64,000 bases of DNA from Quercus robur. Its lineage: Eukaryota > Streptophyta > Magnoliopsida > Fagales > Fagaceae. How positions within the stretch are numbered: the stretch's first letter is position 1; every line of letters begins with the position of its first letter. Of the stretch, positions 11,113 through 55,163 are shown piece by piece. The translations under genes and the position numbers were made by a program. Location: contig NC_065536.1 of the NCBI RefSeq assembly GCF_932294415.1, positions 57,723,854 to 57,787,853 of the forward strand. Reading direction: 5' to 3'. The notes under the pieces are model-generated. The model did not search any database and was not told the origin of the DNA. It saw only the letters and a program-made list of their open reading frames with translations.

Positions 11113-11856
11113 ACTTCATCAATTCTCTTATTAAGAGTTGCTTCCCGTAGTGACTTGCCACTTATACTTGATGCTGTAACTGACACTAGCATGATGAAAT
11201 CTGAGAATAAAAGACCTTCCAGCTCAACCAGGGTCAAATCCATTTCATTCCCAATCTTCATAACAACATGAACATAAATCAATTGGGTGAGTGAGGCACA
11301 AGTGATTCAAGCTCTAGAAATTTCAACCAGTACTTGTCACGAATAAAATTGTGGATAATAACAATTTCATTCACAATGTCAAACTGACAAAGCACACCAG
11401 TCCACATCAGCTGGTCATCTTTCAAAACCATTCCAAGATTTGAGTTATCAGAACCTTTCTGAAGTGCATCTTCCACTTTCTGCCATTCAGAAACCATGGT
11501 AACCTTTGCATCAACATGCGTATCCAATAAATTAAACAAACAAAGCACAGCGCAGGCAATGGTCAAATTATACACCTAAAAAAAGACAGCTCACGGCTCT
11601 ATAAAGAAAAAAAAAATGAATATAACTTAAAAGCTCTATGCACAACATAAAATATAGAAGCTTCAGTTTTTCCTTGTTATGTTATGGTGAAAACAAAAGC
11701 ACACTTCACACACAAGTTGTGGATACCTGCATAATATCAATATATATCTCTGGTTTTTTTTTTTTTTTTGCAGTTTTGAAACATGATCGAGGTCATCATA
11801 GTAAGAGTTTCAATGCCCATGAGCCCATCATTTCCCATCAACATTTTCCTGATGAG
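11113..11856 (-). pseudogene. Truncated genomic duplicate of PRP31 (exon 4 part, intron 3, exon 3 part)
   Basis: It aligns by eye with PRP31 from the middle of exon 4 (near 6770) through the 5' part of that exon, intron 3 sequence, and exon 3 (to about 8450). The exon 4 part keeps frames such as [17 protein letters not shown] (near 11340-11380) and VEDALQKGSD. Because intron sequence is kept, this is a DNA-level duplication and not a retrocopy. Both ends are missing and the reading frame is disrupted, for example around ATGTCAAACTGACAAAGC where the parent reads continuously. It lacks the LINE present in the parent's intron 3. It cannot encode a working Prp31. Confidence 0.9.
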
Positions 11857-27820: not shown

Positions 27821-28795
27821 TTATGCAGCAAGTTCAACATCTCGTTCTACTTCCTCACCGAATTTCTTCTCTAAAGTTCGCTTCTTGCAATCATAGAAAT
27901 ATACCATGCAGACTACCCATTTCAGCACATTCCCCAAGCAGAACAAGCTAATTTGTGCAACAATTCCTATTCCTCCTTCATAGCATCCAAATAAGAGGCA
28001 TGGCAACCTTAAACCCAGTCCCCAAACAAAGAAAACAAACATTAAAAGCACTCCACGCCCCTTACTACCTTTACAAAAATAAGCAGAAAGAGCCAATGCT
28101 TCACCCCCATATATCCCCTCCCACACTGAAATAACAATACTCATATTCCACATAGCACTCCATTCTAAGTATTTTTCTAGTAGTACTAGAAAAACAGTCC
28201 CATAAAACCCTGCAAAGAACACTTCAATAATAGAATTTTCCAAAATAAAATAATATGTGACTAACCATATCAATCCAAGTGAAGTACAAGTTGATATGTA
28301 GAGAACATATATGGATGTGATAAAAGTGCCTCTCAATCTTGCTCCACAAATGGGTTTATGTATCATCTCCTTGAGAGTCATTGGTCTCTCTTGTGCATGT
28401 ATCTTTGATGACAAATCAACAGTCACAATCACAGTGCAAAGCTCAAGGAGATGAAGTGGCACCAGATAAAGGAAACCAAGTTGAAGCAATTCATAAAATA
28501 CATGTTTGGTCATCTTGTTGTATATGAAGTTAGGTACAGGCCAACCTGAGTAACCAGGACTTTGCTTTAGCATATCATAGGTTTCAACCAGAGTCCCTTG
28601 AAGGAAACTTTCATAGTAAACCATGAAGCCAAAAAGAGGGAGTGAAGTCAGCAAGATGATGATGATGAAGTTGAAGTTCTTGAAAGTGATTATTAGAGCT
28701 TCTTTGAGAATATCAAAGACCCCCAGCTTCTGGTTTCGGATATCATGATTCTTCTCAATCAGATTCTCGTTCAGCATAATATGATCGCTGTTCAT
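27821..28795 (-). CDS. Uncharacterised multi-pass membrane protein, copy 1
   Basis: Intronless gene for 324 aa, starting at the ATG at 28793-28795. An in-frame ATG 36 bases upstream (28831) would give 336 aa, but copy 2 begins at the position matching 28795. About six hydrophobic segments are visible: one near residue 40-60, one near 105-130, two between 155 and 210, and two between 245 and 305. A WNMSIVISVWEGIYGGEA signature lies between the fourth and fifth, and a charged DCKKRTLEKKFGEEVERD tail follows. It resembles plant-only multi-pass proteins that have a W-x-SVVSVLE-type signature and no assigned biochemical role; that link is from memory. Location in a membrane is inferred; function is unknown. 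Confidence 0.82.
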   Translation of the reverse strand: MNSDHIMLNENLIEKNHDIRNQKLGVFDILKEALIITFKNFNFIIIILLTSLPLFGFMVYYESFLQGTLVETYDMLKQSPGYSGWPVPNFIYNKMTKHVFYELLQLGFLYLVPLHLLELCTVIVTVDLSSKIHAQERPMTLKEMIHKPICGARLRGTFITSIYVLYISTCTSLGLIWLVTYYFILENSIIEVFFAGFYGTVFLVLLEKYLEWSAMWNMSIVISVWEGIYGGEALALSAYFCKGSKGRGVLLMFVFFVWGLGLRLPCLLFGCYEGGIGIVAQISLFCLGNVLKWVVCMVYFYDCKKRTLEKKFGEEVERDVELAA

Positions 28796-28990
28796 CTCAA
28801 AAGCTTTCTTTTGCAAGCTCAATGTTAACACAGTCGATGGATGAAGATGATGAGAGTGGACTTGACTTTCATTTGCTAACAGAACACAAGATAAGATAGA
28901 AAAATGGTGTCATGGACCCAAAAGTCTTTGGCCCACTTAATTAATTAAATAATTATTTTGGAGTATTTTGACTATTTCAACTTAGTAGTT
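28796..28990 (-). promoter_or_regulatory. 5' flank conserved among membrane-protein copies
   Basis: The words cttgactttcatttgctaa, aaaaatggtgtcat and gacccaaaagtct recur upstream of the copies at 48.6 and 54.8 kb, so at least 100-150 bp of leader/promoter is shared. No TATA box was assigned. Confidence 0.5.
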
Positions 28991-32084: not shown

Positions 32085-32509
32085 TTATAATTATTAATTA
32101 CAAGTTGCCTTGCCTGTGTAGAGCCCTTTGAGAATTTTCAAAAAATGAATCTTAAGTTCTTAACCGAAGTTGTATCTTTTTTCCTATTATTTTCCTTTCT
32201 TGTTCTTCTTTGGTGATTTTACCTCTCCTCTATTTTTTCCTTCTAGATTATAGGATCAGATCAAAATCATCTAAAACTCAAACTTGCTGTTTCGTGGCCA
32301 GTCCTGAACAGGGAGTAGGACACTCTGCCGTAAGGCTTCTACAATGGGAATTATCTCATTTGTCCTCGAGGACAATTACGGCAAAGAAAGCCTGTAATCG
32401 TTGTTCAAATCAATAGAAGTGGACATGGTGATTTTCATTCTAAATGGACGGGCCTCTCATAAGTATTTTGGATTGAGTAATGTTACAGTCGAAAGCATTT
32501 TTACAAATC

Positions 32510-32985
32510 ACATAGCTCATTGCCCATGGCCCGACTTAGTAGCTCAACGGCCCATCAAACTAATAGGTGGCTTGGCTTGTTGCTGTTGAGGCCTATGGGT
32601 AGCCCATTAGTCCAATGGGTCAGGTTGTGGACTAGTTTTTATGCCCATGGGCACTTGGGTAAAAAAATTTAAATAAGTTTTAAATTCTTTAATTACTTCC
32701 TTAAAAAATAGATGAATTATTTTCTTATAAAAGTTGATTTGTTTCTTATAAAAAATAAAAAAAATAATATGCTAACATAAGTTCATGGGTAGCCTATTAA
32801 ATCCTACCTGCTAAAGACAAAATGGGCATTGCCTATGGTCAGAGTTGTTGGTTGGTTTTCTCTTTTAGCCTAACTTGACCTAGCTCATTAATTGGTCTAC
32901 AACCCACTATGCCCAACCCATTATACCCACGGGCCAAGTAAAAATGGGTCGGGCCAACCCAACTCAATCCATTAATGACCCTTAG
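32510..32985. mobile_element. Insertion specific to copy A, MITE-like
   Basis: Copy B reads straight through here (acaaattcttgatggggcaaatg, near 37335), while copy A has about 480 extra bases. The extra part is full of gcccat/atgggc words at both ends, with inverted resemblance between agcccattagtccaatgggt and the region aacccattatacccacgggcc. Likely a hAT-like non-autonomous element, but ends and target duplication are not resolved. Confidence 0.5.
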
Positions 32986-33470
32986 ATGGGGCAAATGTTC
33001 ATTGATTCTCATATTTGCCCACTATCGACATCATTTTTTTACTTACTAATAACCATTCATCGCATTAGCATAAACAAACGTGGGACTCTCAAAAATGGAA
33101 GAAGGGATAGGCATGGGCATAGTATAGGATAGAGTCGAGGTATCTTATGGGGCAGGGTTAGGATTTGTTGTGCAACATTTGTTTATGAAACATCAGTCCC
33201 AATCCCACCTATGATGCCAATTGTTGATGTAAGAATTTCGCATAGCCAATCTAAATTCAGAAGTCCAAACACCTACAAAAAAGAGAGAAAATATCGAAGA
33301 AGTTTCAAGGGTGAGCCTTTATGGTGAGTTACAATGAGTGAGGTTTTGAATTACTTTTGAAAACTTGAGTTTTAATTTTTTATTTTTTAACATTTAGGGT
33401 TTAATTTGTTACTTTTGAAACAATAAGTCATTACACCAAAAACTATAAGATTTCATTTGAAATTTTTCTC

Positions 33471-33473
<3 letters not shown>

Positions 33474-33535
<62 letters not shown>
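33474..33535. repeat. (GA)n microsatellite, about 30 units
   Basis: A nearly pure GA run. The matching place in copy B (about 37835-37857) has only agagaaaaagagaaatgaa, so the repeat expanded in copy A, or contracted in copy B, after the duplication. Confidence 0.95.
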
Positions 33536-33537
<2 letters not shown>

Positions 33538-33631
33538 TGTGCTAGCAAATTTGTACTTATAGAACTTTTTTTCTTCTTTCTTTTGAAAAGAAAATTACAT
33601 TTATGCACTATTAAAAAGTGATTTGATTTAC

Positions 33632-33805
33632 CATCGCGTACCCTTAATACGATGATCACTACACAAGTATAAGTGTTTGTGGAGTGTGAGGGTAAGGGCC
33701 GGAGTTCAAATACTTAGAAAGGAGCTTCACGCACATATACACTTATGTTAAGTTAAAGTAGAATTTCTATCTCGTATAATTTTTTTTTTTTTTTTTTTTT
33801 AATTT
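33632..33805 (+). mobile_element. tRNA-derived SINE, specific to copy A
   Basis: Starts near accatcgcgtacccttaat and has a B-box-like ccggagttcaaatac. The 3' part gttaagttaaagtagaattt and tctatctcgtat is shared with the SINE at 10300-10470, and a T-run tail follows. Copy B lacks it (attaaaatgagattttacttgg near 37938). The 3' tail here is T-rich, whereas the 10.3-kb copy has an A-rich tail. Confidence 0.65.
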
Positions 33806-33902
33806 TGACTTGGTGATCTCATATTTATGAGGTTAAAAATTTTTAAAATACAAAAAAAAAAAAAAAAAAAACCCTTAAATTTAAGAAAACAAAGAGAAAA
33901 GA

Positions 33903-33904
33903 TT

Positions 33905-33948
<44 letters not shown>
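33903..33948. repeat. Poly(A) tract, about 38 bases
   Basis: A long A homopolymer that follows another A run at 33847-33872. Copy B has one shorter run (37998-38017). Length in an assembly may be inaccurate. Confidence 0.8.
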
Positions 33949-33949
<1 letters not shown>

Positions 33950-34227
33950 AGACCTTTATTTGTAACACCTCTCTAAAATGTTTATTTATCATAAATATGG
34001 CAAAATAAATGTATAAACATTTTTCATAATACTTGATTTCATAAATATTTCATGATATTTTAAATACTTGATTTCTCACAAATACATTTAATTTGACCTC
34101 TTTTTTAATGAGTCAAAATTGCAAAGATTTAAAATAGCAAATATACATATTGTTATAAGACAAAAAAGGATCTAACACATGGTTAGATTGTGTTGATGTG
34201 ATGTGATTGCTTGTTTTTGTGATATTG

Positions 34228-35085
34228 CAGGTTAAGAAGTTTAAGCATTTGTATTTTAAGCAAATGGAAGTCATTGAGGCATTAAGAGCAATATTCCCAA
34301 ATGTTAAGAATTCTCTATTTTAAGGACTTTTAAGGAAGAAAAATTCAGAGTTGAAACAAGTGAAACAACTAATTATTACTTTCCAAAAGCAGGTTGATTC
34401 TCTTGTAGGTTAATTACATTGCCTTGTAGAGAATCTCGCTAGGGTAGGACAATAATACCCTTATAATTTTTTTTTTTTTTTTTTTGAAGACTACACCCAT
34501 ATAAATATTAATTTGGTGTTTGACATTAATTTGATGTCTCTATCAAATATTGGATTGTAGAAACTAGAGTAATAAAATAAAATTAGAGTTTCTTTTAGTA
34601 TATACATTTTTAATAAGATTTGGCATGCCTCTGTTAAATTTAAAAAGGTAAACCTTCAAAGCAAAATATTAACCTATTTCTCAAACACGTGAAAACCAGT
34701 ATGGCAGTGACAGTTCATGTATATTCTCAATTAAAGCTAAGTATATGTCAAAACAATCATGAAATTTAGTAAATCATATATATAGGAACTCTAAATTTCC
34801 ATTGATTACTCTAGTTTATACAACTCAATAGTTTATTAGAGACATCAAATTAATGTCGAACACCAAACAATTAGTTTGTGAATGAATGAATATCTATGAG
34901 AGTGTTAACATCCTACCTTAGTAAGATTTCATGCAAGACATTGTAGTTAACCTGCGAGAGAAGTAACCTTGTTTCAACTATGAGTCCTGCTTCTTTAAAA
35001 GTACTTGAAATTTCACTCTTCAATGCCTTGATATCTCCTTGTTGCTTCAAACAAAAATTCTCAAGCTTGAAATTCTACAAAAGCA
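34228..35085. repeat. Long imperfect inverted repeat inside copy A
   Basis: The left arm 34228-34575 and the right arm 34785-35085 are reverse-complementary in several blocks. Examples are ttggtgtttgacattaattt with its partner near 34845-34865, gaaactagagtaat with attactctagttt, and gttgaaacaag with cttgtttcaac. The spacer is about 210 bp. Copy B keeps a partly deleted version (about 38360-38880). Read from the right, the right arm holds an open stretch beginning KQQGDIKALKSEISSTF, so it may come from a coding sequence. Confidence 0.7.
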
Positions 35086-35962
35086 ACTAATCATGTCACT
35101 TGTACACTATCAAACCCATATTGTTAGGAACTTTTTGTCATATAACAATATGAATAAATATGTATTTGTACATTTGTTTTTGTTATATTAATACATTAAT
35201 ATTGGCTAATTGTTAAAATGTAAACATATTGATTTTTTAAATACATAATGTGGTTGCAAAAGTAAAATAAAGGTTTGTGATTTTGATAACTAAAAATGTT
35301 GGGTTAAATATAATGTCTCTAATAAAAGATTCATTCTCAAACTAATTGTTTAATATTACTAAATTATCCAAAATATTCGCTATTAATTATTTAATACATA
35401 TTCTTTCTTGTATTCTTAAATTTTAAACAATTGATTCATCCATACTAGATTCACACCACTTCTTGAGGATGAGCTGATGAGGTCAATTTTAGCGTGATAT
35501 ATTTCATCTTCTTGTAAAACACACAAATTAATCTTATATTGTAAAGAACATATTTGCATTATGATTCTACATGTATAGTTAGATTGTTGGAATGATTTTT
35601 TGGAGAATTTTCTAATGTGTGTCCTTGGAAAAGGTACCATGACATTTGTAAATTTGGTAACCATGACAAGTGTCTTATTGGGAAATGCCATGTGGAAGAT
35701 ATTTCATAGATGTCCATCACTTAAGAAGATTTGAGACACTTGTCAAGGATATAGTTAGTGGAAACCACTCGGCATTACATGAAAGATAGGGTAGTTAATT
35801 GTGAGAAATAACTACCCACCTCCTTGCTTCATGGGATCGCTATAGGCTGAAAATAACTACCATCCATTGCTATAATAGATGACAGTTGTATGAAGAAAAG
35901 GAGACCAAGCACATCAAAAAGAACAAAGAGAACATCTTCATGAGATCATGCCTTCTTAGATA

Positions 35963-37014
35963 AGTGTGTGCTTGAAGGCTCATCTATTTTTTTGGGTAAA
36001 GGTTTAATAATTTGCAACAATTATAATTTGGAATTAGTACATTTTTGGGCAAAATTTTTTTTTTTTTTTTGGTGTTTCTTTTACACATTTTGATGCTTAA
36101 CCAAACTGCATAGTTTGTGTTCTAAATTTAATATGTGTTCTATTGTAATAGTAATCAAAGAAAAGTAATGAGTAAGCTTTAACCCACAAACGCATATTAA
36201 AAAAAAGACAATCATAAGAAAATAAAGAAATGAAGAAGACACAAAGTCCAAATAATTAAAAGGTTGTTGATTTCTTTATAAAAACAAAATAGAAAAAAGC
36301 AATGTACATTGACATACTTGTTGAACTGAAACAATTAGAACTGCACTTTTGTTTTAGATTTTGAATTTAGAAAAGATGATGATGATAGTGTAGAGAAAAA
36401 GAACATAAAATTGAGAGGAATTGAGGAAGAAATAAATTGAAGAAGTTGAGTAACTAATGTGACAGTTATCCTATTTTGTAGGCAGTGTTTTACATGGGAG
36501 TTAGAGATTATATTTAGCATGTTATCCTTAAGTTTTATCTCTAATTTTTAGTATATTTTTCTTCTTCAAAATCCAAACAAAGAGATTTGAGGGGAAAAAA
36601 AAAAAAATCAAACGTGAGATGAGATCAAGGAGCAAGGGAAACTGGGTATTCAAAAAAAAAATGTTAAGTCTTTTTTTTTTATGCAAAAAAAGGAGTTAAG
36701 TCTTGAAAAAAGAAAAAAAAGAAAAGAAGAGTGAAAACGTGGAGTAATGCTTAGTTTGAAAATCAACTGGAGTTAAATATGAGAGTTAAACATTGCCTAT
36801 TTTGTAGGCAAGCTGTGAGATAGGTTTAGGGAGCTTGGGTTTGCACGGTAAGCTTTTAACTACCCTTCTAACTACATTTAGGGTTGGAATGGCTTGGGTT
36901 TGCATGGTGGGCTTTTGAAGGCCCATGACTACTAAGGCCCACTATTGAGGCCTTTTTCTCTATTAAGATGTTACCCACGCCTCAAGGCTTGTCTAATTCA
37001 GCTAGTCCATTGGC
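35963..37014. other. Spacer between the two duplication copies, nothing recognised
   Basis: About 1 kb, AT-rich with A runs. Contains a local echo: ctattttgtaggca occurs at about 36472 and 36798. No gene seen. Confidence 0.5.
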
Positions 37015-38924
37015 CTTAATTGTAATTAGTAATCACAAGTTGTCCTTTGAGAATTTTCAAAAAAAAAAAAGAATCTTAATCAAAGTTGCACCTTTTTCCC
37101 ATTATTTTCCATTTTTGTTCTCCTTTGGTGATTTTACCTCTCCTCTATTTTCCTTGACATAAGCCTTCTACAATGGGAACGATCTCATTTGTCCTTAAGG
37201 ATAGTCACTGTAAAAAGAGCTTATAATCATTGTTCAAATCCGTAGATGTGGACATGGTTATTTTCATTCTAAATGGATGAGACTTTCATAAGTATTTTGT
37301 GTTGAGTAATGTTAAAGCCACAAACATTTGTACAAATTCTTGATGGGGCAAATGTTTATTAATTTTTATCTAGGCTCACTATTAACAGCACTTTTTTACT
37401 TACCAATAACCACTCACCACATTAGCAAAAAGAGACATAAGTCTCTAAGGAATGGAAAGAGAGATAGGCATGGGCATAGTAGAGGATAGAGTCAAGGTAT
37501 CTTATGGGGTGTGTTTGGATTTTATGTGCAACATTTGTTTACGAAACATCGTTCCCACTTCTGATGCCAATTGTTGATGCAAGATTTTTGGATAGCCAAT
37601 CTGAACTTTGAATTCCAAACACCTACAAAAAAGAGAGAAAAGATTGAAGAAGTTGCCAAGCGGAGCCTCTCTAGGGGGAGTTACAATGAATGAGATTTTG
37701 AATTACTTTTGAAAACTTGAGGTTTAATTTTTTATTTTTTTTAAATTGGGGTTTGATTTATTACTTTTGAAATAAGAAAGTTTAATTCATTACACCTTAA
37801 ACTATATGATTTCATTTGAAATTTAAAAATGAAAAATAATGAGAGAAAAAGAGAAATGAATGTGTGCTAGCAAATTTGCACTTATAGCACTTTTTTTTTC
37901 TTCTTTCTTTTGAAAAATAAAATTACATTTATGTTCTATTAAAATGAGATTTTACTTGGTGATCTCATATTTAATGAGGCTTAAATTATTTAAAATACAA
38001 AAAAAAAAAAAAAAAAACTTAAATTTAAGAAAACAAAAAGAAAAGATTTATAAAAAGACAGTTAGACTTTTTATTTGTAACACCCCTCTAAAATGTTTAT
38101 TTATCATAAGTATAGAAAAAATAAATCTATAAACATATTTTCATAATACTTGATTTCATAAATATTTCCAACTATTTAAAATAGTCGATTTCTCACTACT
38201 CACAAGTATATTTAATTTGACCTTTTTTGAATGAATCAAAATTGCATTTAAAATAACACACACACACACACATTTTTATACATTTTGTTATAAGGCAAAA
38301 GGGATCTAACACATGGTTAGATTGTGTAGATGTGATATGATTGTTTGTTTTGTAATATTTACAGGTTGAGAAGTTGAAAGATTTGTATTTAAAGCAAATG
38401 GAAGATTTTAAGGCATACAAGACTGCGATACTATTCTCAAATGTTAAAAATTCTATGTTTTAAGGACTTTTAAGGAAGAAAAATTCAATGAAACAAGTGG
38501 AACACCTATTACTCTAAAAATTTGAGGATAATACCCTTATAAACAAGTGAAACAATTATTACTCTTAATTTCCATTGATTACTCTAGTTTATACAACTCA
38601 ATAGTTAATCAGAGACATATTAATTTCAAGCACCAAAAAATTGAATGACTAGTTATGAAAGTGTTATCGTCCTACTTTAGCAAGATTTTTTGCAATACGT
38701 TAAAAACTATACATAGCAGTGAAACAACTGATGGTATTCTTTTTTTTTTTTCTTTTTTTTAATTTTAAGTCCTGCTTCTTTGAAAGTCCTTGAAATATTT
38801 CTCTTCAATGCATTAATATCCTCTTGTTGCTTTAAACAAAAATCCTTCAACTTCTCGAGTTAGAAATCCCACAAAAGCAAATAATCGTATCACTTATGCA
38901 CAATCACACTACAAAATTATCAAC

Positions 38925-39145
38925 ATATACTAGATCTAGAAAGAGTTGGTATAGACCTGTTTGGGATATCCCAACGCTTTTAATGCCTGCGGTTTCAACC
39001 ATTGGCGAAGAGGTGAGACGATAGACCCAGCTGAGCTACACCGGCGATTTTAAAACCACTAGTTCAAGATCTAGCAATTTTGTAACCCTATATCGGTGGT
39101 TTGTAGAAGTTGTCAAAATATTCCAAGGAACCTATACCAGCTTTA
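38925..39145 (-). mobile_element. tRNA-like repeat specific to copy B
   Basis: On the minus strand it reads ccggtgtagctcagctgggt, a tRNA-type A box, then ggttgaaacc, a B-box-like word, about 40 bp on. Copy A lacks this stretch. It cannot fold into a complete tRNA by eye, so a tRNA-derived SINE is more likely than a gene. Confidence 0.45.
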
Positions 39146-39473
39146 TAGCATTTAACATATGTATAACAATATGTTTATACATTTATTTCTTTTTTATATT
39201 AAAACATTATTGTTGGCTAATTGTTAAAATTAAACATATTGATTTTTATATATACATAAAGCATTTGCAAGAGTAAAATAAAGTTTTGTAATTTTTATAA
39301 CTAAAAAAGTTGGACTAAATATACTTAATTTAATGTTTCTGATAAAATATTCATTCTTAAATTAATTGTTTAATATTATTAAATTATCCAAAATATTAGC
39401 CATTAATTATTTAATGTATATTCTTTCTTGTATTCTTTAATTTTAAACAATCGATTCAACCATACTAGATTCA

Positions 39474-39646
39474 GTACATATGTGAGTTCCAATTAGTTCA
39501 ACTGGTAAAAATTTTTATAGTTGAATAAGAGATCTAGGGTTCAATCCCAGTCTACACTAAAAACCGATTGGTGTCTTAGTCTGATGATAAAGAACAAAAA
39601 TCACAGAAGTGAACGTCATAGGTTGAAACTCTTAAAAAAAAAAAAA
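39474..39646 (+). mobile_element. tRNA-derived SINE with target-site duplication
   Basis: A-box-like ttagttcaactggtaaaa and B-box-like gggttcaatcccag are about 40 bp apart, and a poly(A) run ends the element at 39633-39646. The target duplication agattca lies at 39467-39473 and 39647-39653. Copy A has the unoccupied site (ctagattcacacc, near 35447). Confidence 0.85.
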
Positions 39647-39840
39647 AGATTCACTACACTTCTTGAGGATGAGTCGATGAGGTCAATTTTAGCATGATAT
39701 GTTTCATCTTCTTGTATAATACACAAATTAACCTTACATTGTAGAGAACATAGTTGCATTACGATTTTACATGTATAGTTAGATTGTTGGATTGATTTTT
39801 TTGGAGAATTTTCTACTGTATGTCCTTGGAAACTGTACCG

Positions 39841-41173
39841 TGCAAAATTTTCTACCAAGTGACACACTCTTTGAAAAGAATTGAAATACTCTTACCACAT
39901 CAGAGATAAAAACAATTTAAAAATTGAGACTCTTTATTTATTTTTTCTTTTTTTCTTTTTGAGAACTACTCTTTATTTCCTTTGGCTCAATGCTTCAAGA
40001 TTACTATTTTTTCATTTGGTTTAATGTTTCAAGACTTTTACTCTCTCACACACGCACACAAAACTCTTTGCATTTTATTGTAGTGTTTATATTATTATTT
40101 TATTGTGTTAAAAGCTAAAATAAAACCACTGATGTTGGACGTTTTGTAATGTGAGAAGGTAAAATAGATATAGTAGCTTTTTGTGGTGCCAAATAGCTAA
40201 AAAAATGGCTCAACCAATGTGGATGCTCTTATATTCACATGCCCACAACCTTTCATGTCATTTCATCACAAATACACCCAAACCAAAAATGACGTCATTT
40301 ACCTTCAACTTTTCAACGACACCTACATAACTCCAATATTGTCATACCATTTGATCCTAACACACCTACATAACTCCAATATTGTCGTACCATTTGATCC
40401 TAACCCATATGAGAAGGTAATGACCAAGGAAGGGGCTTGCATTTTTTATTAATCAATGATGGTAGTTTATGGTTTTGATGTTCAAATCGAACGTTGTGGA
40501 TTTTGTGAAAGTTGTGATTTGCTTTGAGTCTTTGGGTTTTTGGGATTTTGGTTTGGGAAAGTCATATCTGTATTTTGTTTTAGAACTCAAGAGAAAGAAA
40601 AAGAAACCTTCTCATTGATTATTTATGAAATTAGCTTTTTTTTTAGAACTCATAATTTGTAAGTTTCTTTGTAGGTTATTTTACTGCTATTTTGTGCAAT
40701 ATGAGCCATAATAATAAAAATAAAAATTGATGATAATTTCAAAGTGTTTTCCATTTTTTTAAGAATATGGAAGCCTAACTAAAGGCAATTAAATTTTGAT
40801 AAATGGATGTATTTTTAGCCAATTTTTATTATTGGGGTCTCTATATTTGGTTGTGAGAATAAAGTAGTTAAGGAAGTTTTTGAGAGGTTGCTTAAATTTA
40901 TGTAATTATAGGATATAAAATTATTTATGCTTTAAATTTTTATTTATAGACGACTACAGAATTATTTAATTAATTTAAAAAATAAAGTCCACTTTTAACA
41001 ATAAATATTATAATATGTTAAACTCATATAGTGTTATGCAATTGTTTATAAATAAATAAATATATATATATATATATATATCCGCGTAAATATTATATGT
41101 ACATCTTAATATATATAAAATAATTTCAAATAAAATCGTAAAATATCCGCGTATCACGCAACACTTCATCTAG
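39841..41173 (+). mobile_element. Insertion in copy B with a Helitron-like 3' end
   Basis: Copy A has no equivalent. The right end has a short hairpin gcgt-atc-acgc (41149-41159), then 10 bases, then CTAG (41170-41173) followed by T, as at Helitron 3' ends. The 5' end is not resolved: the first TC after the break (39851) does not follow an A. Inside are a 43-bp tandem pair (40321-40406) and a TA tract. No RepHel protein is visible. Confidence 0.55.
40321..40406 (+). repeat. Two tandem copies of a 43-bp unit
   Basis: Acctacataactccaatatt plus gtc[a/g]taccatttgatcctaac is repeated twice with almost no difference. It lies inside a 77-codon open frame (40219-40452) that I consider noncoding. Confidence 0.8.
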
Positions 41174-42599
41174 TAATTTTAATGACAACATGTATAAATT
41201 TGGTAACCATGACAAGAATATCTTAGTGGGAAATACCATGTGGAAGACATTTTTCCATCACTTAAGAAGCTTTGAGACACTTGTCAAAGACCATTTGGCA
41301 TTACATGAAAGATAGGGTAGTTAATTGAGGGAAATAACTTCCCACTTCCTTGCTTTATGGGGGTCGTTATCAGCTGAAAATAACTACCATTCATCTATAT
41401 ATTACTAAAAGCTGAATCGTAGCATTTAATGTTGCTACGCTCACATTGAGCCACAGCTACGTCATTCCCATCCTATTTTCTAAATTTTTAATTCAATTTT
41501 AAAATAGTTTTCCCAATTTTAAAATACTAATAAAACTAAAATTATTTTCAACCTATCTCTACCTTAAAGTCCACTTCTTATACATATAAATCCACTATAA
41601 AGCCCAAGCCCACACCCAAAGCCTTTTCAACTAACTCCCTTTATCAAACATGATTGCTTTCACGGTTACAACTTATGTTATTCCCTTCTGTTACATGGAT
41701 TAAAATTCCTATCTCCCACGTTTTGTTTCATCGTTTCAGGTTTAGTTCCTTCCCCTTCCCCATCTTTTGATTCTCACAATTTCAGCTTCTATTCTACTGT
41801 TTCACTCATGGTTTCATCTTCTTGTTCTACAGTTTCAACTTCTGTTTTGGCTTCTAACAGTAGCCTCTCTGTCTTCCTTCCTCTCCTCACATCTATATAA
41901 ATACTGATGTAAGCTGGGTGGTTCAATTGAGGTCTTCCTACATCCCAATTTCTTTTGTACTCTATTCTTTTGCTTGATGGTTTTTTTTTTTTTTTTCCTT
42001 TCTATGTTTGTTTCTGCCTATTTCTTGCTATGGTGTGGATGGTTGTTAGGGTGTTGAATTTGTTATTGCTAGGTTATTTAATTGGATCACTGCTTTTTTG
42101 GGTATGTTTAATCAGAGTTCTTTTGGGGATTTTCTAGGTTGGGAAAACCCAGAGATAGTGTGACAATCATGTAGCTAAGCAAAGTTGACTAAAGCTCAAG
42201 GTGTGACAATTTGTGATAATCACATTGCCTTTGTTTTGTTCACAAATTTAAATCTGTCACCTTTTAGTTAATAAGACAAAAGCTCATCAAATGGCTGTCC
42301 TATGTATGTGTCAAATGGGGGAAGCAAACACAAAAAACAATACACCCCAAAACATAAAACATTAGATCTTTTTTAGTGTATGTGTATTTGCACATGAGTG
42401 TTTGTATTCATTCATCCAAAAAAAAAAAAGTTTTGGTGTTCAAAATGAAAAGGTCTAGGATTTAATTTTGTGAATTCTTATCCGGGTTCATGTGGCTACC
42501 TCTTAGAAACTTGATTTTAGGGTACAATTTCTCTTCTGGATATAAATTTGAAATTCATAAGGAATTTTAAATTCTAATTCATTTTGGTTTCCATTTTGA

Positions 42600-43080
42600 A
42601 TTTATAGGTTCTAATTTGAACCAAGATGGAACCACAATAGACTTTGAGTTTGTGTATTTGAACTTTTAGGGGAAATTGATCTTTGGGTTTAAATTTTTTA
42701 TGATTCATTTTGTGGTGGGTTTGTGCATTGAGATTAGAGTTTGGTATTGGTTTCTTTTGAATTGTGGGTTTGGGTTTGATTTAGAGGTGGATTTGTGAAT
42801 ATGAGGTCATATGTTAGATATTTTTACTGATTTAGTAGACTATTGGTGGTGGGATTGGTATTGAACTTGGACTTGGTCTTAACGTTTTGTATTTAACTTT
42901 TGAAGACAATTTCAGGTTTTGCAAATAGGATAGGTTTATATAGTAGAAAGGAGATGAATTGAATCACAATGGTCTTTGAGATTATGTATTTGAAAGTTTA
43001 AGGGATTTTGAGAAGAAGGTTTGCTTTTTTAATGATTTATTTCATGGTGGGTTTGTGCATTGAGATTAGAGTTTGGGATA
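42600..43080 (+). repeat. Tandem duplication with ~331-bp offset in the Helitron
   Basis: The word gtttgtgcattgagattaga plus gtttgg appears near 42720 and 43051. Before each are parallel words (tggtctttgagatt / tagactttgagttt, tgtatttgaa). The two copies have diverged moderately. Confidence 0.65.
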
Positions 43081-43159
43081 TTCACTGCAAATTTGAAATT
43101 TATCATTGAGAATGAATTTTGGGTTCAATGAATTTGGGTCTAATTTTAAAGTGGTCTTG

Positions 43160-43920
43160 GTCTTAGGTTCTATCCAAATAGAAAAGATTTATACCAGACA
43201 ACAGCAATGGCTGCCACTGCTGCATAAGATTGGTTTACAAAACTAAGGGGACCATTGGAAGTTGTCACGGGTTTTAGTGCATAAGATTGTATATTCATGT
43301 TGCTAAACTCATCCGAATAGAGATAGAGATTGTAGTAATGCATGTCAATGACTACATGATTGAAGTTTCCAGCAAATGAGAGTTGCTCCTTTGGATCAGC
43401 ATTCCCCAACTAGTTTGAAAGGATCACATAAGCACTTGGTGTGTACTTTCTCACAACATCATACCCGGATTTATAATAGTTTTTTAGGTTGTTTGGAGTG
43501 ACTCCTGGTGCATGAGGTTCGTTCATTAACTCAATTGCTGCAAGACTTGGATTGTTGACTTACCTACGCAAAAACAAGGTCTAATTTAGGATGTAGGGAA
43601 CATTCAAAATTCATCAGTTGCTCTTATTGGAGTGGTCTATATTGCATATGTGGTATGTCACTCTTAGATAGCATTCTCAAACCATTTTATCGAAAAAAAA
43701 AAAAAACATTAGCAGTTAATCAAAGATATGGTACTTTATAGTAAGAATAAAAGTTAAGTTTATTGAACCTTTTTGCTAGGAAGTCTATGACTACCACGAT
43801 ATCCTTTATATTGGAATCTCCCCATTCCTGAAATCCATCTCTTGTCCCACTGTGATCGTTTACATTCTATGATCCTTGAACCACATGCAGGTCAGCAATT
43901 ACTTTCATCCCACATTTCAT
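43160..43920 (-). pseudogene. Glycoside hydrolase family 5 gene fragment (glucan 1,3-beta-glucosidase A-like) captured by the Helitron
   Basis: On the minus strand, the first block (about 43915-43795) reads GMKVIADLHVVQGS, then NDHSGTRDGFQEWGD and IKDIVVVIDFLA. After a ~230-bp intron-like gap with an acceptor near 43566, the second block (43565-43165) reads NPSLAAIELMNEPHAPGV, YKSGYDVVRKYTPSAYVILSN and VVIDMHYYNLY, then VTTSNGPLSFV. NEP holds the family's acid/base glutamate. Two in-frame stops are visible: after VQGS in the first block and after VILSN in the second. Start and end of the gene are missing. Retention of the intron shows capture from genomic DNA. Confidence 0.85.
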
Positions 43921-44079
43921 AAAATTTTCAAAGAAAACATCAATTTAAAGTAATTTGTTACGACCTTTGTTCTTAATAATTTGTGCATCGTGTATCTTAA
44001 AAGAGCTTACTTGGGATCATAAGTAAAATTGTCTTTTTAATATATATGGCAAGAAGTTAGAATATGGGAAGACTTTTGG

Positions 44080-44420
44080 GTCATGGTCATAATTTCAAAC
44101 ACATTGCTAAGATAGCTTAGTGGTTCAACAGCAATTGGTGGTTAGTTTGCTAATTGATGTAATGAGAGGACAGTGGGACTTGGCAAAGTTACAAGACCTA
44201 TTTGATGTAGCTTCAATCTGTGCCATTGTTAAAATTCCTCTCAATAAGAATTACACCAGATAAGATTATGTGGATAACAAATGCTCAAGGGAGGTTTATT
44301 GTGAGGTTAGCATATTTTTTGCAACAGGGGGTGATGTCAAGAACAGAGATCAGTCTGGAAGAAGCAATGAAATTTGAAAATACTATGGAGAACAACTCAA
44401 AAAATTTTACCTACTAAATG
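44080..44420 (+). mobile_element. LINE fragment (end of RNase H / zf-RVT region) inside the Helitron
   Basis: In the plus direction, two frames resemble the region before the zinc-binding domain of plant L1 elements: GQWDLAKLQDLFDVASICAI, then PDKIMWITNAQGRFIVRLAY. A frame change separates them, so it is dead. It may have been captured with the Helitron or inserted into it later. Confidence 0.6.
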
Positions 44421-45466
44421 CAGGTTACAAGAGTTGGCATCATTACTACTTATTACAAGCTAATCATGATCTAACATTTTAGGTGGTTTTTCAGGATCAT
44501 CAAGATCTATTATTGCTTAAGTTTTATAAATTTTTTCTGCTATTAGATAATGCAATTGGTCTGAATGATTGATAGGATGCTTTTAAACCTATATATAATG
44601 GTTGCATTATAATGATTTTTAGTTATTTGAGTTTTGAAATTATCTACAAGTTAATTTGTAATTATCGAAATGTTTAATGTTGGCGATGCTCTTTTATTTG
44701 TCAGAAAGGAATTGATATTGATATAATGCAGAAGAACATCAATACATGCTGTGCCAAAATTGTATCGCTCTGTGACCTATTGTTGGATCAACCTACCGTG
44801 CAATCACTTGAAAAAATTCAATAATTCAAGGCTTCATTAAATTCATTGACATTGTACTTGGTTTATCTTTGAAACAATTGAGGCAAAATTCAAGTGCTAT
44901 ATTTGTTTCTTTGGTTGATCTTTGAAATAATTATGGCCAAATTCAAGTGTACTTTTTGGTTCTTTGCAGATATAAGAGGGGAGGAGTCTGGCTTTTTGGT
45001 TCTTTGGATCTGAAGGAAAGAGGAAACATTTTGAAAATTAGGCTACTTATTGGCCTTAATAAATAGATAAATCGTCAAATATTTAGAAACAAATTAAAAG
45101 TTGCATGTAACTTTGCAATATGAACTAAACATTTCACTTGCATATCTCTTTTTCAACCACAAAGTGTACCAACAATGAGAAGTTCTATTTTGAAAGGAAA
45201 CTTAACTGGGAAATAAATGTGCTTGCTAGAGGAGCAATGATCTATAATTTTGTTGCTTTCGCAAGACCGGAATGGAGTATATGAATATTAGGAATTAATT
45301 TTATAAATAAATAAATAAGTTCTTGATCATTTTTCTCAATTTTCTTGTGCATCGCACAGGTTAGCGACTAGTTTCTATAATAGAAGACAATTTTATGAAG
45401 AAAAGGAGACCAAACATATCAAAAAGAACAAGAGAACTTCTTCATGAGATCGTGCCTTCTTAGATA

Positions 45467-46710
45467 CAGAATAATATGCTTCTAGTAAAATTGGTACGAG
45501 AGAAATCTTCTTGTAGTCATTTTAGTGATCTTCAACATTTGTATTCAAATGATCTTCAATTAGATTCAAGTAAGCTTTCATTAAGTTGTGCTCTTTGATT
45601 TAGTTCAAGTAATTCCTTAGTTGTTAGTCACAATTCCTTTGTTTTAAATCCAATTTACTTTATTATTGGTATTGCTTTCATGTGTATTGCAATCCCTCCA
45701 TCTTTAAAAAAATCCTCTTTATTAAGGCAATTACCGAACCCACTCAAAGTTGGGTGCTAGAGAAAATAAATTCATCATGGTATTTATTTTTGTAAAAGTG
45801 TAATTGAGACCACAGTAGTAGTTGAGACAAAATGGAGAGATTCTTAAGAGTTGCACTTGATGCAAACCGTATTGAAGAGAACATGACCATATTGGATCAA
45901 CTTGAAGAAGAAGAGGCCAAGTGGAAACAAATTAATGAAAAATTGATCATATCGAACCTACTTGAATGTTTAACTTTGTGGGATTATCTTGACCCAAATG
46001 TAGATTTTGAAATAAAAACAAGAACCTTAACAATTTCAAAATAATATGCATGGAATGAGGCTGAGGAAAGAATTTCATGAGATAAGCCAATGTCTTCAAG
46101 AAATTTCACCAAATGGTCAAACTCAAGAATTAAAACTCAGGGGGCAAGAACTGTCCCATACTTTTAATCTTGAAAAATGTAATTTTGAATGGCAAAAAAT
46201 TGTCAACGACTCAATGGGCATAAATAACCCATTAGACTCGATATTCTTAACTCAAAAATAAAGAATATGAGAAATTATGGTTGAAAAATCAAGTTTCCAT
46301 TAGTACCACTATCTACGAAAATGAGGATCCATGTTGGTAATTTGGATCCTATGATCTTAAATTTTTTTCAAAGTTGTTGGTCCTGTTCAAAGATTATAAT
46401 GACTCCATGGTTAAAACATTTATTAACCATTTAAATGGCTAAATCATCCATTTGTAAAATTCTGTTATATATATATGGAGTTGGCTTCAACATCGAGACC
46501 AATATAACCTCAAAGTGGTCACAATATTGTTAATCCATTGGATAAATTTGAAAGAAAACCAAGAGTATGAGTCCAGTGAATTGAAAGGCCAGCGAAGTTT
46601 ATTGATTGTAATACATCGATGCTATTAACAAAGTCAATATCATGGCTATTGTTTTGATCCTAGTGTCTTGCATGGCTTAAATGTAAGTTTAACCTGCATA
46701 TGCAAGTTTG
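45467..46710. other. Intergenic, two unrecognised short open frames
   Basis: Frames at 45832-46044 (70 aa, starts MERFLRVALDANR, charged) and 46046-46261 (71 aa, starts MHGMRLRKEF) are adjacent and in different phases. Their composition is more protein-like than most short frames here, and they might be one broken gene or a retroelement part. I do not recognise a family. Confidence 0.4.
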
Positions 46711-47567: not shown

Positions 47568-48554
47568 TTATGCATCAATGGCATCAATATCTCTTCCTAC
47601 TTCCTCATCAACTTTCTTCTCTAAAATCCGCTTCTTGCAATCATAGAAATAGACCGTGCAGACCACCCATTTCAGCGTATTCCCCAAGCAGAACAAGCAA
47701 ATTTGTGCAACAATTCCTCTCCCTCCTTCATAGCATCCAAAATAGAGGCATGGCAACCTTAAGCTCAGTCCCCAAACAAAGAAAACAAGCATCAAATGCA
47801 ACCCACGCCGCCCAATACCTTTGCTAAAATAAGCAGAAAGCGCAAATGCTTCAACCCCATATAACCCCTCCAACGTTGAAATGACAATACTCATATTCCA
47901 CATAGCACTCCATTCCAAGAATTTTGTTAGTAGTACTACAAAAGCTGCCCCATAAGACACAGCAAATAACACATCAACAACAGAATTTGCAAATATAACA
48001 TAGTAGTTTGTGGCTAACCATATCAATCCGAGTAGAGTGCAAGTTGATAAGAAGAGAACGTAAAATGATGTGACAAAAGTGCCTCTCAGTCTTGCTCCAT
48101 AAATGGGCTTATGTATCATCTCCTTGAGAGTCATTGGTGTCTCTTCTGCATATATCCTTGATGCCAAATCAACAGTCACAATCACGGTGCAAAGCTCAAA
48201 GAGATGAAGGGGCACCAGATAAAGGAAGCTAAGTTGAACCAATTCATGAAAAAAATCTTTGGTCACTGTTTTTACCAAAAATTCAGGTAACGGCCAATTA
48301 TAGGTGGAGTAACTAGGTGGATGCTTTAGGATATGTGAGGCTTCAACAAAAGTCCTTTGAAGGAAAGTTTCATAGTAAACCATGAAACCAAAAAAAGGGA
48401 GTGAAGCCAGAAAGATAAAGATGATGAAGTTGAAATTCTTGAAAGAGACTATTAGAGCTTCTCTAAGGATATCAAAGACCTCCAGCTTCTGTTTTTGCAA
48501 ATCATGACTTTTCTCAAGCAATTTCTGGTTCATCATAATATGATTATTTTCCAT
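47568..48554 (-). CDS. Uncharacterised multi-pass membrane protein, copy 2
   Basis: Intronless, 328 aa, start ATG at 48552-48554 (MENNHIMMNQ). Hydrophobic segments lie at about 40-61, 104-130, 160-190, 194-213, 252-280 and 284-305, which suggests around six membrane passes. The WSAMWNMSIVISTLEGLYG signature is at 215-233, LRLPCLYFGCYEGGRG at 265-280, and a basic CKKR followed by an acidic tail is at 306-321. It differs from copies 1 and 3 at scattered positions but keeps the frame throughout, which argues for selection or recent origin. Function is unknown; a membrane role is inferred from hydrophobicity only. Confidence 0.85.
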   Translation of the reverse strand: MENNHIMMNQKLLEKSHDLQKQKLEVFDILREALIVSFKNFNFIIFIFLASLPFFGFMVYYETFLQRTFVEASHILKHPPSYSTYNWPLPEFLVKTVTKDFFHELVQLSFLYLVPLHLFELCTVIVTVDLASRIYAEETPMTLKEMIHKPIYGARLRGTFVTSFYVLFLSTCTLLGLIWLATNYYVIFANSVVDVLFAVSYGAAFVVLLTKFLEWSAMWNMSIVISTLEGLYGVEAFALSAYFSKGIGRRGLHLMLVFFVWGLSLRLPCLYFGCYEGGRGIVAQICLFCLGNTLKWVVCTVYFYDCKKRILEKKVDEEVGRDIDAIDA

Positions 48555-49780
48555 CTCCCAGCCTTACATTTCTGATCTCAATGACACCTTTGGTAGATGA
48601 AGAAGATGAGAGTGGTCTTGACTTTCATTCGCTAATGGATCATGAGGTCTTTGTCCACTAAATAACTTAATTCTTATCATGGAGGACTTGGACTTTTCAA
48701 CCTACTAATCACATTCTCTTCATGAGAGAGCTAGCAGTGCCTCAGGTAAAGCTAAATAAAAGCCATATGGGCATACACACTTAATGCTACTATTTTACAA
48801 CATTTTTACATCTGGACCAATTGTTACTGGTTTTCATCTGGACCCACTACTAACATCACTTTAACACTTACCAATAACCACTCACCACATCAACCATTTG
48901 TAAATAATTTGTAGCTCTAGCATTTTTCATAATGAAAATAGAGGTGGGATGAAGATGACTTCCTGCATGGTCTTGGTATCTGCAGACCATGTTCCATGTA
49001 AAGCTAGGACTTGACTCCTTGACCAAGGGCTGCTAGCTAGGATATAATGAGCATTTGCACACCACCCAGGCCCCTTGTTCATACACTTGTGTAGACCCCA
49101 ACTAGTTCTTTCAATTTTTTAAAATTCATGACTCCTCAAATGGACAGCTTCCACCCACCCACATATATGTGAGAATTTCACAAGGATTCTGCAGTTTCAA
49201 TGTTTCATGAAGTTTTCATATGGTTTCTGATCCTCTCATCCAATAGTAACCCACAATAGATAGTGACCAAAACACCCTAGCTGACTTCATCACAATGAGG
49301 ATCACCAACAAGGACAAAATGGGTAGCTGACAAAAAAGCTCAATTAATCAAAGTTAAGGAATCTCTGCCTTAAACTCCCAGAAGGGAAGCAAGTGCCTTA
49401 TCTGGGAGTTTCCTCTTAGTTTCTTTCTCATCAACATGGCCTTACCTTGCTAACATTTTTCACAATTTTTAACATATTCTATTGTGATTGGAATACCATC
49501 ATTTTTACATAGAACCAGAGTGGTTTATTGCATTTTAGGACCAGCAACAAAGATTAAAATGAGACATTTTATATTTTTAAATATTATTTAAATAATTTTT
49601 AATTAAAATATATTATTCTTGCATTTTTATATGCAAAATTATATATTAAATTTTTGTATTCAAATTCCTCTAACATTTCTATAGATAATATGGCTAATCA
49701 ACTTTAATCTTGAAAACTTCTTTATGTTGAAGCAACTATAATAAGTATTCTCTACAAGCCATACGTGCACTTGGAGAAGA
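48555..49780. other. Intergenic and promoter side of membrane-protein copy 2
   Basis: The first ~130 bases (cttgactttcattcgctaat and following) are conserved with the 5' flanks of copies 1 and 3. A stretch near 48790-48910 (tacaacatttttac, taccaataaccactcacca) resembles foldback repeats elsewhere. No gene seen. Confidence 0.5.
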
Positions 49781-53624: not shown

Positions 53625-54650
53625 TTATGCACCAACAGCTTCGATATCTCTTCCAACTTCCTCATCAGCTTTCTTCTCTAAAATCCGCTTCTTGCAATCA
53701 TAGAAATAGACCATGCAGACTACCCATTTCAGCACATTCCCCAAGCAGAACAAGCTGATTTGTGCAACAATTCCTCTCCCTCCTTCATAGCATCCAAAAT
53801 AGAGGCATGGCAACCTTAAACCCAGTCCCCAAACAAAGAAAACGAGCATCAAAAGCAGCCCACACCCCTCGCTACCTTTATTAAAATAAGCAGAAAGAGC
53901 AAATGCTTCACCCCCATATATCCCCTCCAACACTGAAATGACAATGCTCATATTCCACATAGCACTCCATTCTAAGTATTTTGTTAGCAGTGCTACAAAA
54001 GCTATTCCATAAAACACTGCAAAGAACACATCAATGGCAGAATCTTTGATAATAAAATGGTAGTCTGCGAATAACCACATCAATCCAAGTTGAAAACTAT
54101 TTGTGATTAACCATATTAACCCGAGTAGAATACAAGTTGATACGAAGAGAATGTAAATTGAAGTGATAAAAGTGCCTCTCACTCTTGCTCCATAGTAAAG
54201 CTTATTTATCATATCCTTCATTTCCTTGAGAGTCAATGGTCTCTCTTCTACATATATCTTTGACGCCAAATCAATAATCACAATCACACTGCAGAACTCA
54301 ACGAGATGTAGAGGCACCAGATAGAGGAAACCAAGGTGAAACAATTTTTCAAAAAGATCTTTGGTAATTTGAAGACTCGTTTCTTCAGTTGAAAAATCAG
54401 GAATCGACCTCTTATAGTAGAAGTAACCAGGAGGCTCATTAACGATATTTGAGGTTTCAACCAGTGTCCTCTGAAGGAAAATTTCATAGTAAACCATGAA
54501 GCATAAAAGAGGCAGGGAAATCAGAAAGACAAAAATGATGAAATTGAAATTCTTGAAAGAGATTTCAAGAGCTGCTCTAAGGACATCAAAGGCCTCCAGC
54601 TTCTGGTTCCGCTTATCATGAATGTTCTCGCCCAGCTTCTGCTCTGGCAT
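53625..54650 (-). CDS. Uncharacterised multi-pass membrane protein, copy 3
   Basis: Intronless, 341 aa from the ATG at 54648-54650 (MPEQKLGENI). In copies 1 and 2 translation starts seven codons earlier (M-x-x-x-HIM). Here that codon is ATC (gatcaatagcaatcac on the sense strand), so the start has moved downstream, leaving a slightly shorter N-terminus. A ~14-residue insert between hydrophobic segments three and four is an internal near-repeat (LGLIWLITN then LGLMWLFAD). The rest matches the family: WNMSIVISVLEGIYGGEA, LRLPCLYFGCYEGGRG, YDCKKRILEKK. The frame is otherwise open throughout. Function unknown. Confidence 0.84.
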   Translation of the reverse strand: MPEQKLGENIHDKRNQKLEAFDVLRAALEISFKNFNFIIFVFLISLPLLCFMVYYEIFLQRTLVETSNIVNEPPGYFYYKRSIPDFSTEETSLQITKDLFEKLFHLGFLYLVPLHLVEFCSVIVIIDLASKIYVEERPLTLKEMKDMINKLYYGARVRGTFITSIYILFVSTCILLGLIWLITNSFQLGLMWLFADYHFIIKDSAIDVFFAVFYGIAFVALLTKYLEWSAMWNMSIVISVLEGIYGGEAFALSAYFNKGSEGCGLLLMLVFFVWGLGLRLPCLYFGCYEGGRGIVAQISLFCLGNVLKWVVCMVYFYDCKKRILEKKADEEVGRDIEAVGA

Positions 54651-54777
54651 AATGTGATTGCTATTGATCTTCGAGTCTTTCTTTTTGGAGCTTAGTGTTC
54701 AGTGTTTTGGATCTCAATGTTTAGTGTCAACAAAGTAGATAGATAAAGATGATGGTGGTGGACTTGACTTCCTTGCT

Positions 54778-55163
54778 CATCTGTTAGTCCATATTGAGAG
54801 TGAAAAATGGTGCCATTGACCGAATGGTCTTTCATTTGGCTTCCCCACTAATTCAATTATCAGAGGACTTGGAACTGGTCAAGGTCTCTATTGAGATAAA
54901 TATATAGAACACAGAGAAAGAGGAAGGATGTTTCCTTGGTTCAGTGGTTGCCATTGACCCAATGGTCTTTCATCTGTTAGTCCATATTGAGAGTGAAAAA
55001 TGGTGCCATTGACCCAATGGTCTTTCATTTGGCTTCCCCACTAATTCAATTATCAGAGGACTTGGAACTGGTCAAGGTCTCTATTGAGATAAATATATAG
55101 AACACAGAGAAAGAGGAAGGATGTTTCCTTGGTTCAGTGGTTGCCATGTCTTATTCAAACTTG
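54778..55163. repeat. Near-identical 193-bp tandem duplication upstream of copy 3
   Basis: Catctgttagtccatattga begins at 54778 and again at 54971. The two units run in parallel to about 55147 with only a base or two different (gaccgaatgg against gacccaatgg). It lies in the 5' flank of the membrane-protein gene, so it duplicates promoter-proximal DNA. Confidence 0.92.

Follow-up and report, generated by a model that had tools for sequence, protein, structure and literature searches.

A non-autonomous Helitron with a GH5 gene fragment and an unoccupied paralogous site in Quercus robur

Helitrons are characterized in the excerpt used here from PMC4683698 by a 5′ TC, a 3′ CTRR, a hairpin about 10-12 bp before the 3′ end and a target between A and T, and in that from PMC2575219 by a TCT start, a CTAGT end and a 5′ flanking A. 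The excerpt from PMC13317346 reports gene-fragment capture by Helitrons of plants. For the bat element Helraiser, the excerpt from PMC4778049 reports the action of a RepHel protein and a 3′ hairpin that serves as termination signal before CTAG. Here, a 64,000-nucleotide stretch of Quercus robur DNA (the window; C3:57723854-57787853) was analyzed together with the genome assembly (785.7 Mb, 42 contigs). An element of 3,978 bp at 41394..45371 (plus strand) of the window showed the defining features given in the excerpts from PMC4683698 and PMC2575219. We are practically certain that it is a canonical non-autonomous plant Helitron of a high-copy family, inserted after a local duplication.

The element, located at C3:57765247-57769224 in the assembly, was found to begin with TCTATATATTACTAAAAGC and to end with TGTGCATCGCACAGGTTAGCGACTAG. 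Its 5′ end is TC (41394-41395), preceded by A at 41393, and its 3′ end is CTAG (45368..45371, plus strand), which agrees with CTRR, recurs in family copies and is followed by T at 45372. A GC-rich 3′ hairpin, TGTGC-ATC-GCACA (45346..45358, plus strand), assessed by motif search and folding and similar to hairpin ends in family copies, stops 13 nt short of the element end. The 27-nt 3′ motif, searched with up to 3 mismatches, occurred once in the window and in none of 100 shuffles, and the 19-nt 5′ motif occurred once in the window and was matched in 8 of 100 shuffles. No inverted repeat pairing both element ends was present in the inverted-repeat list of the window.

The window contains a direct duplication (32125-35962 compared to 37044-45466) with aligned blocks that are 70.5-90.6% identical, and a comparison of the open frames of the window revealed no long conserved open frame in the duplicated segment. 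The first copy contains an empty paralogous site (35642..35962, plus strand) with the insertion point between 35866 (A) and 35867 (T). Alignment of 41300-41393, joined to 45372-45470, with 35770-35970 showed a junction without a gap, one substitution three bases off the junction on either side, and single-base gaps farther away. This comparison showed insertion between A and T and no target duplication at the element borders. Among 750 border pairs aligned to the empty site (starts 41380-41409, ends 45360-45384), the pair 41394/45371 was the best with a score of 171.0, the runner-up scoring 169.5. The borders at 41394 (TC) and 45371 (CTAG) are exact. An initial annotation of the window had listed the TC start, the 3′ hairpin, the CTAG end, the insertion between A and T and the lack of a target duplication, and had fixed the borders to the base by the duplicate at about 35860; all of this was confirmed, and an extra or missing base at the junction, which it had named as grounds for abandoning the reading, was not found.

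The ends of the element were shown to be shared by many other places in the genome. A 31-nt 5′ pattern representing the family form, from which the window differs by one base, was found 918 times in the assembly with up to 3 mismatches (444 forward and 474 reverse), and the reversed control gave no occurrences. The 5′ kilobase of the element had at least 65 genomic matches (the best 40 of 1,137 candidates were scored), and 28 copies (L009-L036) were fetched for comparison of the ends. In 22 of the 28, TC[A/T]A was present at the expected start base; the base in front of it was A in 19 copies, T in two and G in one. A recognizable 3′ hairpin end was detected in 20/28 copies by a search, made without a chance control, for resemblance to the hairpin end of the window or of L015 with up to 7 substitutions and CTAG, CTAA or CTGG only; 18 of these ends were CTAG, that of L021 was CTGG and that of L036 was CTAA. 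All 20 were followed by T, a base that the search did not require. One of the 20, in L011, belongs to a nested element: L011:3379-6729 is another Helitron with similar ends, whose empty site between A and T is visible in L009 and L010.

The 3′ kilobase of the window gave at least 48 genomic matches (the best 40 of 68 candidates were scored). Among the matches listed, 25 genomic places match within 45049..45371 (plus strand), the family 3′ region, and C5:60763036-60763350 does so to the last base at 83% identity. Three places found by means of the 3′ kilobase end at the same base in unrelated flanks, with CTAG followed by T in L038 and L040 and CTAA followed by T in L039. When the 25 places were compared with the 131 5′ positions in the list (of a total of at least 918, and with a few ends listed twice), five, each of them on C3, were found 4.1-6.0 kb downstream of a 5′ end in the same orientation, and none in the opposite one. 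The 5′ and 3′ ends of the family belong together, and independent copies with the same ends are present in different flanks. The possibility raised in the initial annotation that other copies might have different ends was not borne out. The shared 5′ region covers positions 1-929 of the element (41394..42322, plus strand), over which the window was 88-91% identical to L009-L011; L012, L013, and L015 match positions 1-784 and 855-929, L014 matches 1-784 and L016 matches 1-758. The element belongs to a high-copy family whose members have about 0.9 kb or less in common at the 5′ end and about 0.3 kb at the 3′ end.

When the first 50 nt were folded as DNA, a 5′ subterminal palindrome (41416..41441, plus strand; family form AGCGTAGCA-8 nt-TGCTACGCT) was predicted (z -2.52). 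In 24 copies, 87% of the cells were paired and no compensatory change was seen; all 500 shuffles were at least as good, both for cells paired and for pairs changed on both sides; the palindrome was therefore rejected as a selected or functional structure. Scanning the window with Rfam and for tRNAs gave no matches, a scan of viral contigs with the 5′ end of the element gave no match, and the letters of this end were not found in the literature searched by sequence.

The element carries, on the minus strand at 43237..43979, a fragment of a GH5 gene comprising part of an intron, exon A, an intron and exon B, with 87% identity to L037 (C6:3349571-3350728; 1,158 bases read). Exon B (43237..43563, minus strand) was delimited by Pfam and PDB matches and by alignment to L037, relative to which it has a 30-base gap. 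It matched the GH5 Pfam family PF00150 (Cellulase; E 2.6e-8), and its best PDB match was Glucan 1,3-beta-glucosidase A (8z2w; E 1.6e-6). Exon A (43769..43918, minus strand), which ends with AAAAAG/GT, gave no GH5 Pfam match on its own, the first residues of the query probably being intron; it was identified because of its alignment to L037, and its upstream limit was set by inspecting this alignment. Between them lies the retained GT...AG intron (43768-43564, minus strand), and alignment to L037 showed the same intron there. The fragment has three in-frame stops in total, one TAG in exon A and a TAA and a TAG in exon B. Gene fragments in plant Helitrons keep introns, and since the intron is retained here, the GH5 copy was made from DNA. 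The captured GH5 fragment with its intron, as claimed in the initial annotation, was thereby upheld. We take the fragment to be of a GH5_11-like subfamily.

A search with the GH5 piece 43170-44010 gave 31 genomic matches (30/30 candidates). Besides the window, the longest match was C6:3349771-3350528 (87% over 773 aligned columns, window 43237-43979), and all other places matched at most 459 of the 841 bases. The contig 6 sequence L037 has stop-free exons and splice signals, and its exon B matched PF00150 with E 1.3e-9. On this evidence, the contig 6 gene piece is either the parent of the fragment or a near relative. The full-length parent that the initial annotation had proposed to look for was in part recovered, as a stop-free gene piece within the 1,158 bases read and not as a full-length gene.

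The sister copies were shown to contain different cargo. The window parts from them at element position 929, from where L009-L013 run on into a WD40 gene fragment according to the reading of sequences and frames; the Pfam support for it (PF00400, E 5.3e-9) comes from L010, the sole copy scanned for that piece. In L012 and L013, antisense fragments of an aluminium-activated malate transporter (ALMT) gene were found (PF11744, best E 7.6e-24). A piece in L010 without a Pfam match, recognized by eye, is presumably peptide-transporter-like. The window departs exactly where L009-L013 enter the WD40 fragment, and this coincidence may suggest that the family trades cargo modules at a limited number of internal joints or preferred breaks. 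Other copies leave the shared 5′ region at about 715, 758 or 784, so that the parting points vary between copies, and we consider such joints doubtful. As a separate observation, L017, L018, L019, and L025 are 6.6-7.3 kb copies with a common open frame near the 3′ end (SGKRNLFQANIEGDK...), which we assume to be F-box-like, and L026, L028, L029, and L033 contain an antisense frame of seemingly the same piece.

How the GH5 piece came into the element can be read in more than one way, since the interior seems to have a history of its own: either GH5 was captured in this lineage and the exons were lost from related copies, or an exchange of the interior with a different repeat took place. Among the matches listed, an interior piece at 44451..44719 (plus strand) is present over its whole length at 10 other genomic places (91-93% identity), and at eight of these, part of the GH5 intron region lies no more than 2 kb away. 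In seven of the eight cases this is a 102-base GH5 intron piece no more than 1 kb away, and at C38:36187567 it is a longer piece within 2 kb; at C37:22144818 the nearest GH5 intron piece is about 9 kb off, and at C4:17130903 there is none. One of the ten places, L041, was read and found to be collinear with parts of the window interior and to be without the GH5 exons. These observations, and the lack of the GH5 piece in all 28 fetched copies with the same 5′ end (L009-L036), would fit entry of the piece from another repeat with the same interior, through exchange or through insertion of that repeat, rather than capture by this Helitron lineage. Against this stands that no place besides the window and the contig 6 gene matches more than the 459 bases mentioned above. 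We regard such an exchange or insertion as a serious possibility, if a somewhat improbable one. A LINE-like piece (long interspersed nuclear element) at about 44180-44330 had no Pfam match and is not claimed.

The direction of change at the insertion site was assessed by comparison with further paralogues, since a single empty site gives no direction and a Helitron that predated the duplication might have been precisely lost from the copy at about 35860. The empty-site sequence 35642-35962 had 7 genomic matches (7/7 candidates scored), namely the site itself, the two parts that flank the Helitron and four more. C2:21649658-21649974 (68% identity, query 1-319) spans the insertion point without the element, and is also without one base beside that point. 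C3:23912210-23912372 (71% identity, query 75-237) likewise lacks the element and extends only 12 bases past the insertion point; the remaining two matches cover only query 263-319. One of the four paralogous places compared is thus occupied, and three (35642-35962, C2:21649658, and C3:23912210) are without the element, the latter two being much more distant. Gain is the simple reading because three sites lack the element and one has it, and a single gain is much more probable than three precise losses. Helitrons are not known to excise precisely. These sequence comparisons favour gain over loss, which we hold to be very improbable, and support an insertion that is younger than the local duplication. 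The same relative age had been proposed in the initial annotation from the empty duplicate, to which the two more distant unoccupied paralogues are now added. That the locus is instead another kind of element, such as a miniature inverted-repeat transposable element (MITE), a Pack-Mutator-like transposable element (Pack-MULE) or a retroposon, or an indel that arose by chance between the diverged duplicates, can hardly be credited, for although Pack-MULEs capture gene fragments too (excerpt from PMC13317346), a target duplication and an inverted repeat pairing the ends are absent, hundreds of places start with the same 5′ pattern, other copies stop at the same 3′ base and the retained intron speaks against an mRNA intermediate.

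The element appears from its reading frames to encode no recognizable transposase. Its only stop-to-stop frame of at least 90 aa is 41601-41900 (99 aa), and none of the 126 matches to Helitron_like_N (PF14214) in the genome (150 scored candidates) lies within it. These matches are in open frames of up to 1,491 aa, and seven are in frames of more than 1,000 aa when second pieces of the same frame are set aside. Since the element has no transposase frame, a RepHel protein would have to be supplied in trans to copy it. By analogy with Helraiser, the element would be copied as a single strand by a rolling-circle mechanism, and, after the duplication, it would have entered the downstream one of the two segment copies at a position between A and T. 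Its cargo includes a copy, at the level of DNA, of two exons with introns from a glucan 1,3-beta-glucosidase-like GH5 gene, possibly the contig 6 gene; this copy may have been captured by read-through or template switch, lies antisense to the element and has decayed.

Several observations weigh against the classification as a Helitron of this family. TC[A/T]A is missing at the expected base in 6/28 copies (L017, L024, L029, L034, L035, and L036), whose starts are altered or truncated, that of L036 still being TC, and no 3′ end was recognized within 8-9 kb in 8/28 copies (L009, L010, L012, L014, L016, L031, L034, and L035). Even the closest sister found reaches no more than 90.5% identity over 929 bp, and the GH5 piece is, as stated, not present in any fetched copy. 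The folding energy of the 3′ hairpin was not significant (last 50 nt, z -1.36; 18 of 200 shuffles equally good). Of 88 RepHel places (the 126 matches minus further pieces of the same loci), none lay downstream, at a distance of up to 15 kb, of any of the 131 5′ positions in the list, out of a total of at least 918. When three stretches that precede RepHel domains on the upstream side (5, 4, and 4 kb) were searched for the 5′ end at a tolerance of 4-6 substitutions, the matches were no more than weak and partial. Besides, one 4-kb stretch downstream of RepHel (L045) was searched, and no 3′ end was found in it.

Further features were observed in the window. The copy of the duplicated segment that carries the Helitron (copy 2) contains a second large insertion (39843-41187) that is not present in copy 1. 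This has a Helitron-like 3′ end with a GCGT-ATC-ACGC hairpin and CTAG at 41170-41173 followed by T, and its start may be TC near 39851; with borders at about 39851 and 41173, the remaining sequence exceeds the empty site by about 20 bp, and the insertion is given as a lead only. A short insertion at 39467-39658 in copy 2, with an empty site in copy 1, shows a B-box-like GGTTCAATCCC, an A-rich tail and the flanks AGATTCAGTACA and AGATTCACTACA; we take it to be a tRNA-derived short interspersed nuclear element (SINE). Three related open frames on the minus strand (27821-28909, 47568-48563, and 53625-54698; 362, 331, and 357 aa) probably encode membrane proteins, and the first, the sole one scanned, had no Pfam match. 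A PRP31-like open frame (6187-7143, minus strand; 318 aa) with Nop and Prp31_C domains is possibly a retrocopy, and a partial second copy of its neighbourhood is present at 11117-11579. At 54777-55147, there are two 178-bp copies (193 bp start to start), probably recent or converted because they are 99.4% identical.

The initial annotation had called the locus uncommon and clean. It is clean, and it is not rare, as the 5′ ends were found in hundreds of copies, several of them with gene fragments. It is a textbook-quality case in which base-exact borders, a direction of change from two paralogues, a captured gene with a relative in the host's own genome and the different cargo of sisters come together, and it may be used as a curated example for Helitron annotation in Quercus robur and for the turnover of captured gene fragments. 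It is a clear and instructive but ordinary Helitron of a well-known kind; it is not surprising and leaves knowledge of Helitrons unchanged. Compared to Helraiser/Helibat1, the bat Helitron in the excerpt from PMC4778049, it is alike in the TC...CTAG ends, insertion between A and T and a palindrome near the end (11 nt before the end and acting as terminator in Helraiser), whereas Helraiser encodes RepHel and the window element does not, and the palindrome is 19 bp in Helraiser and 13 in the window element. It is closest to the gene-fragment-carrying non-autonomous Helitrons of maize, rice, and Arabidopsis, with which, as far as the excerpts describe them, it shares the 5′ TC(T), the hairpin before CTAG(T), the target between A and T and the captured fragments, and from which it differs only in the identity of the cargo (GH5, with WD40 and ALMT in sisters) and in its family-specific end sequences.

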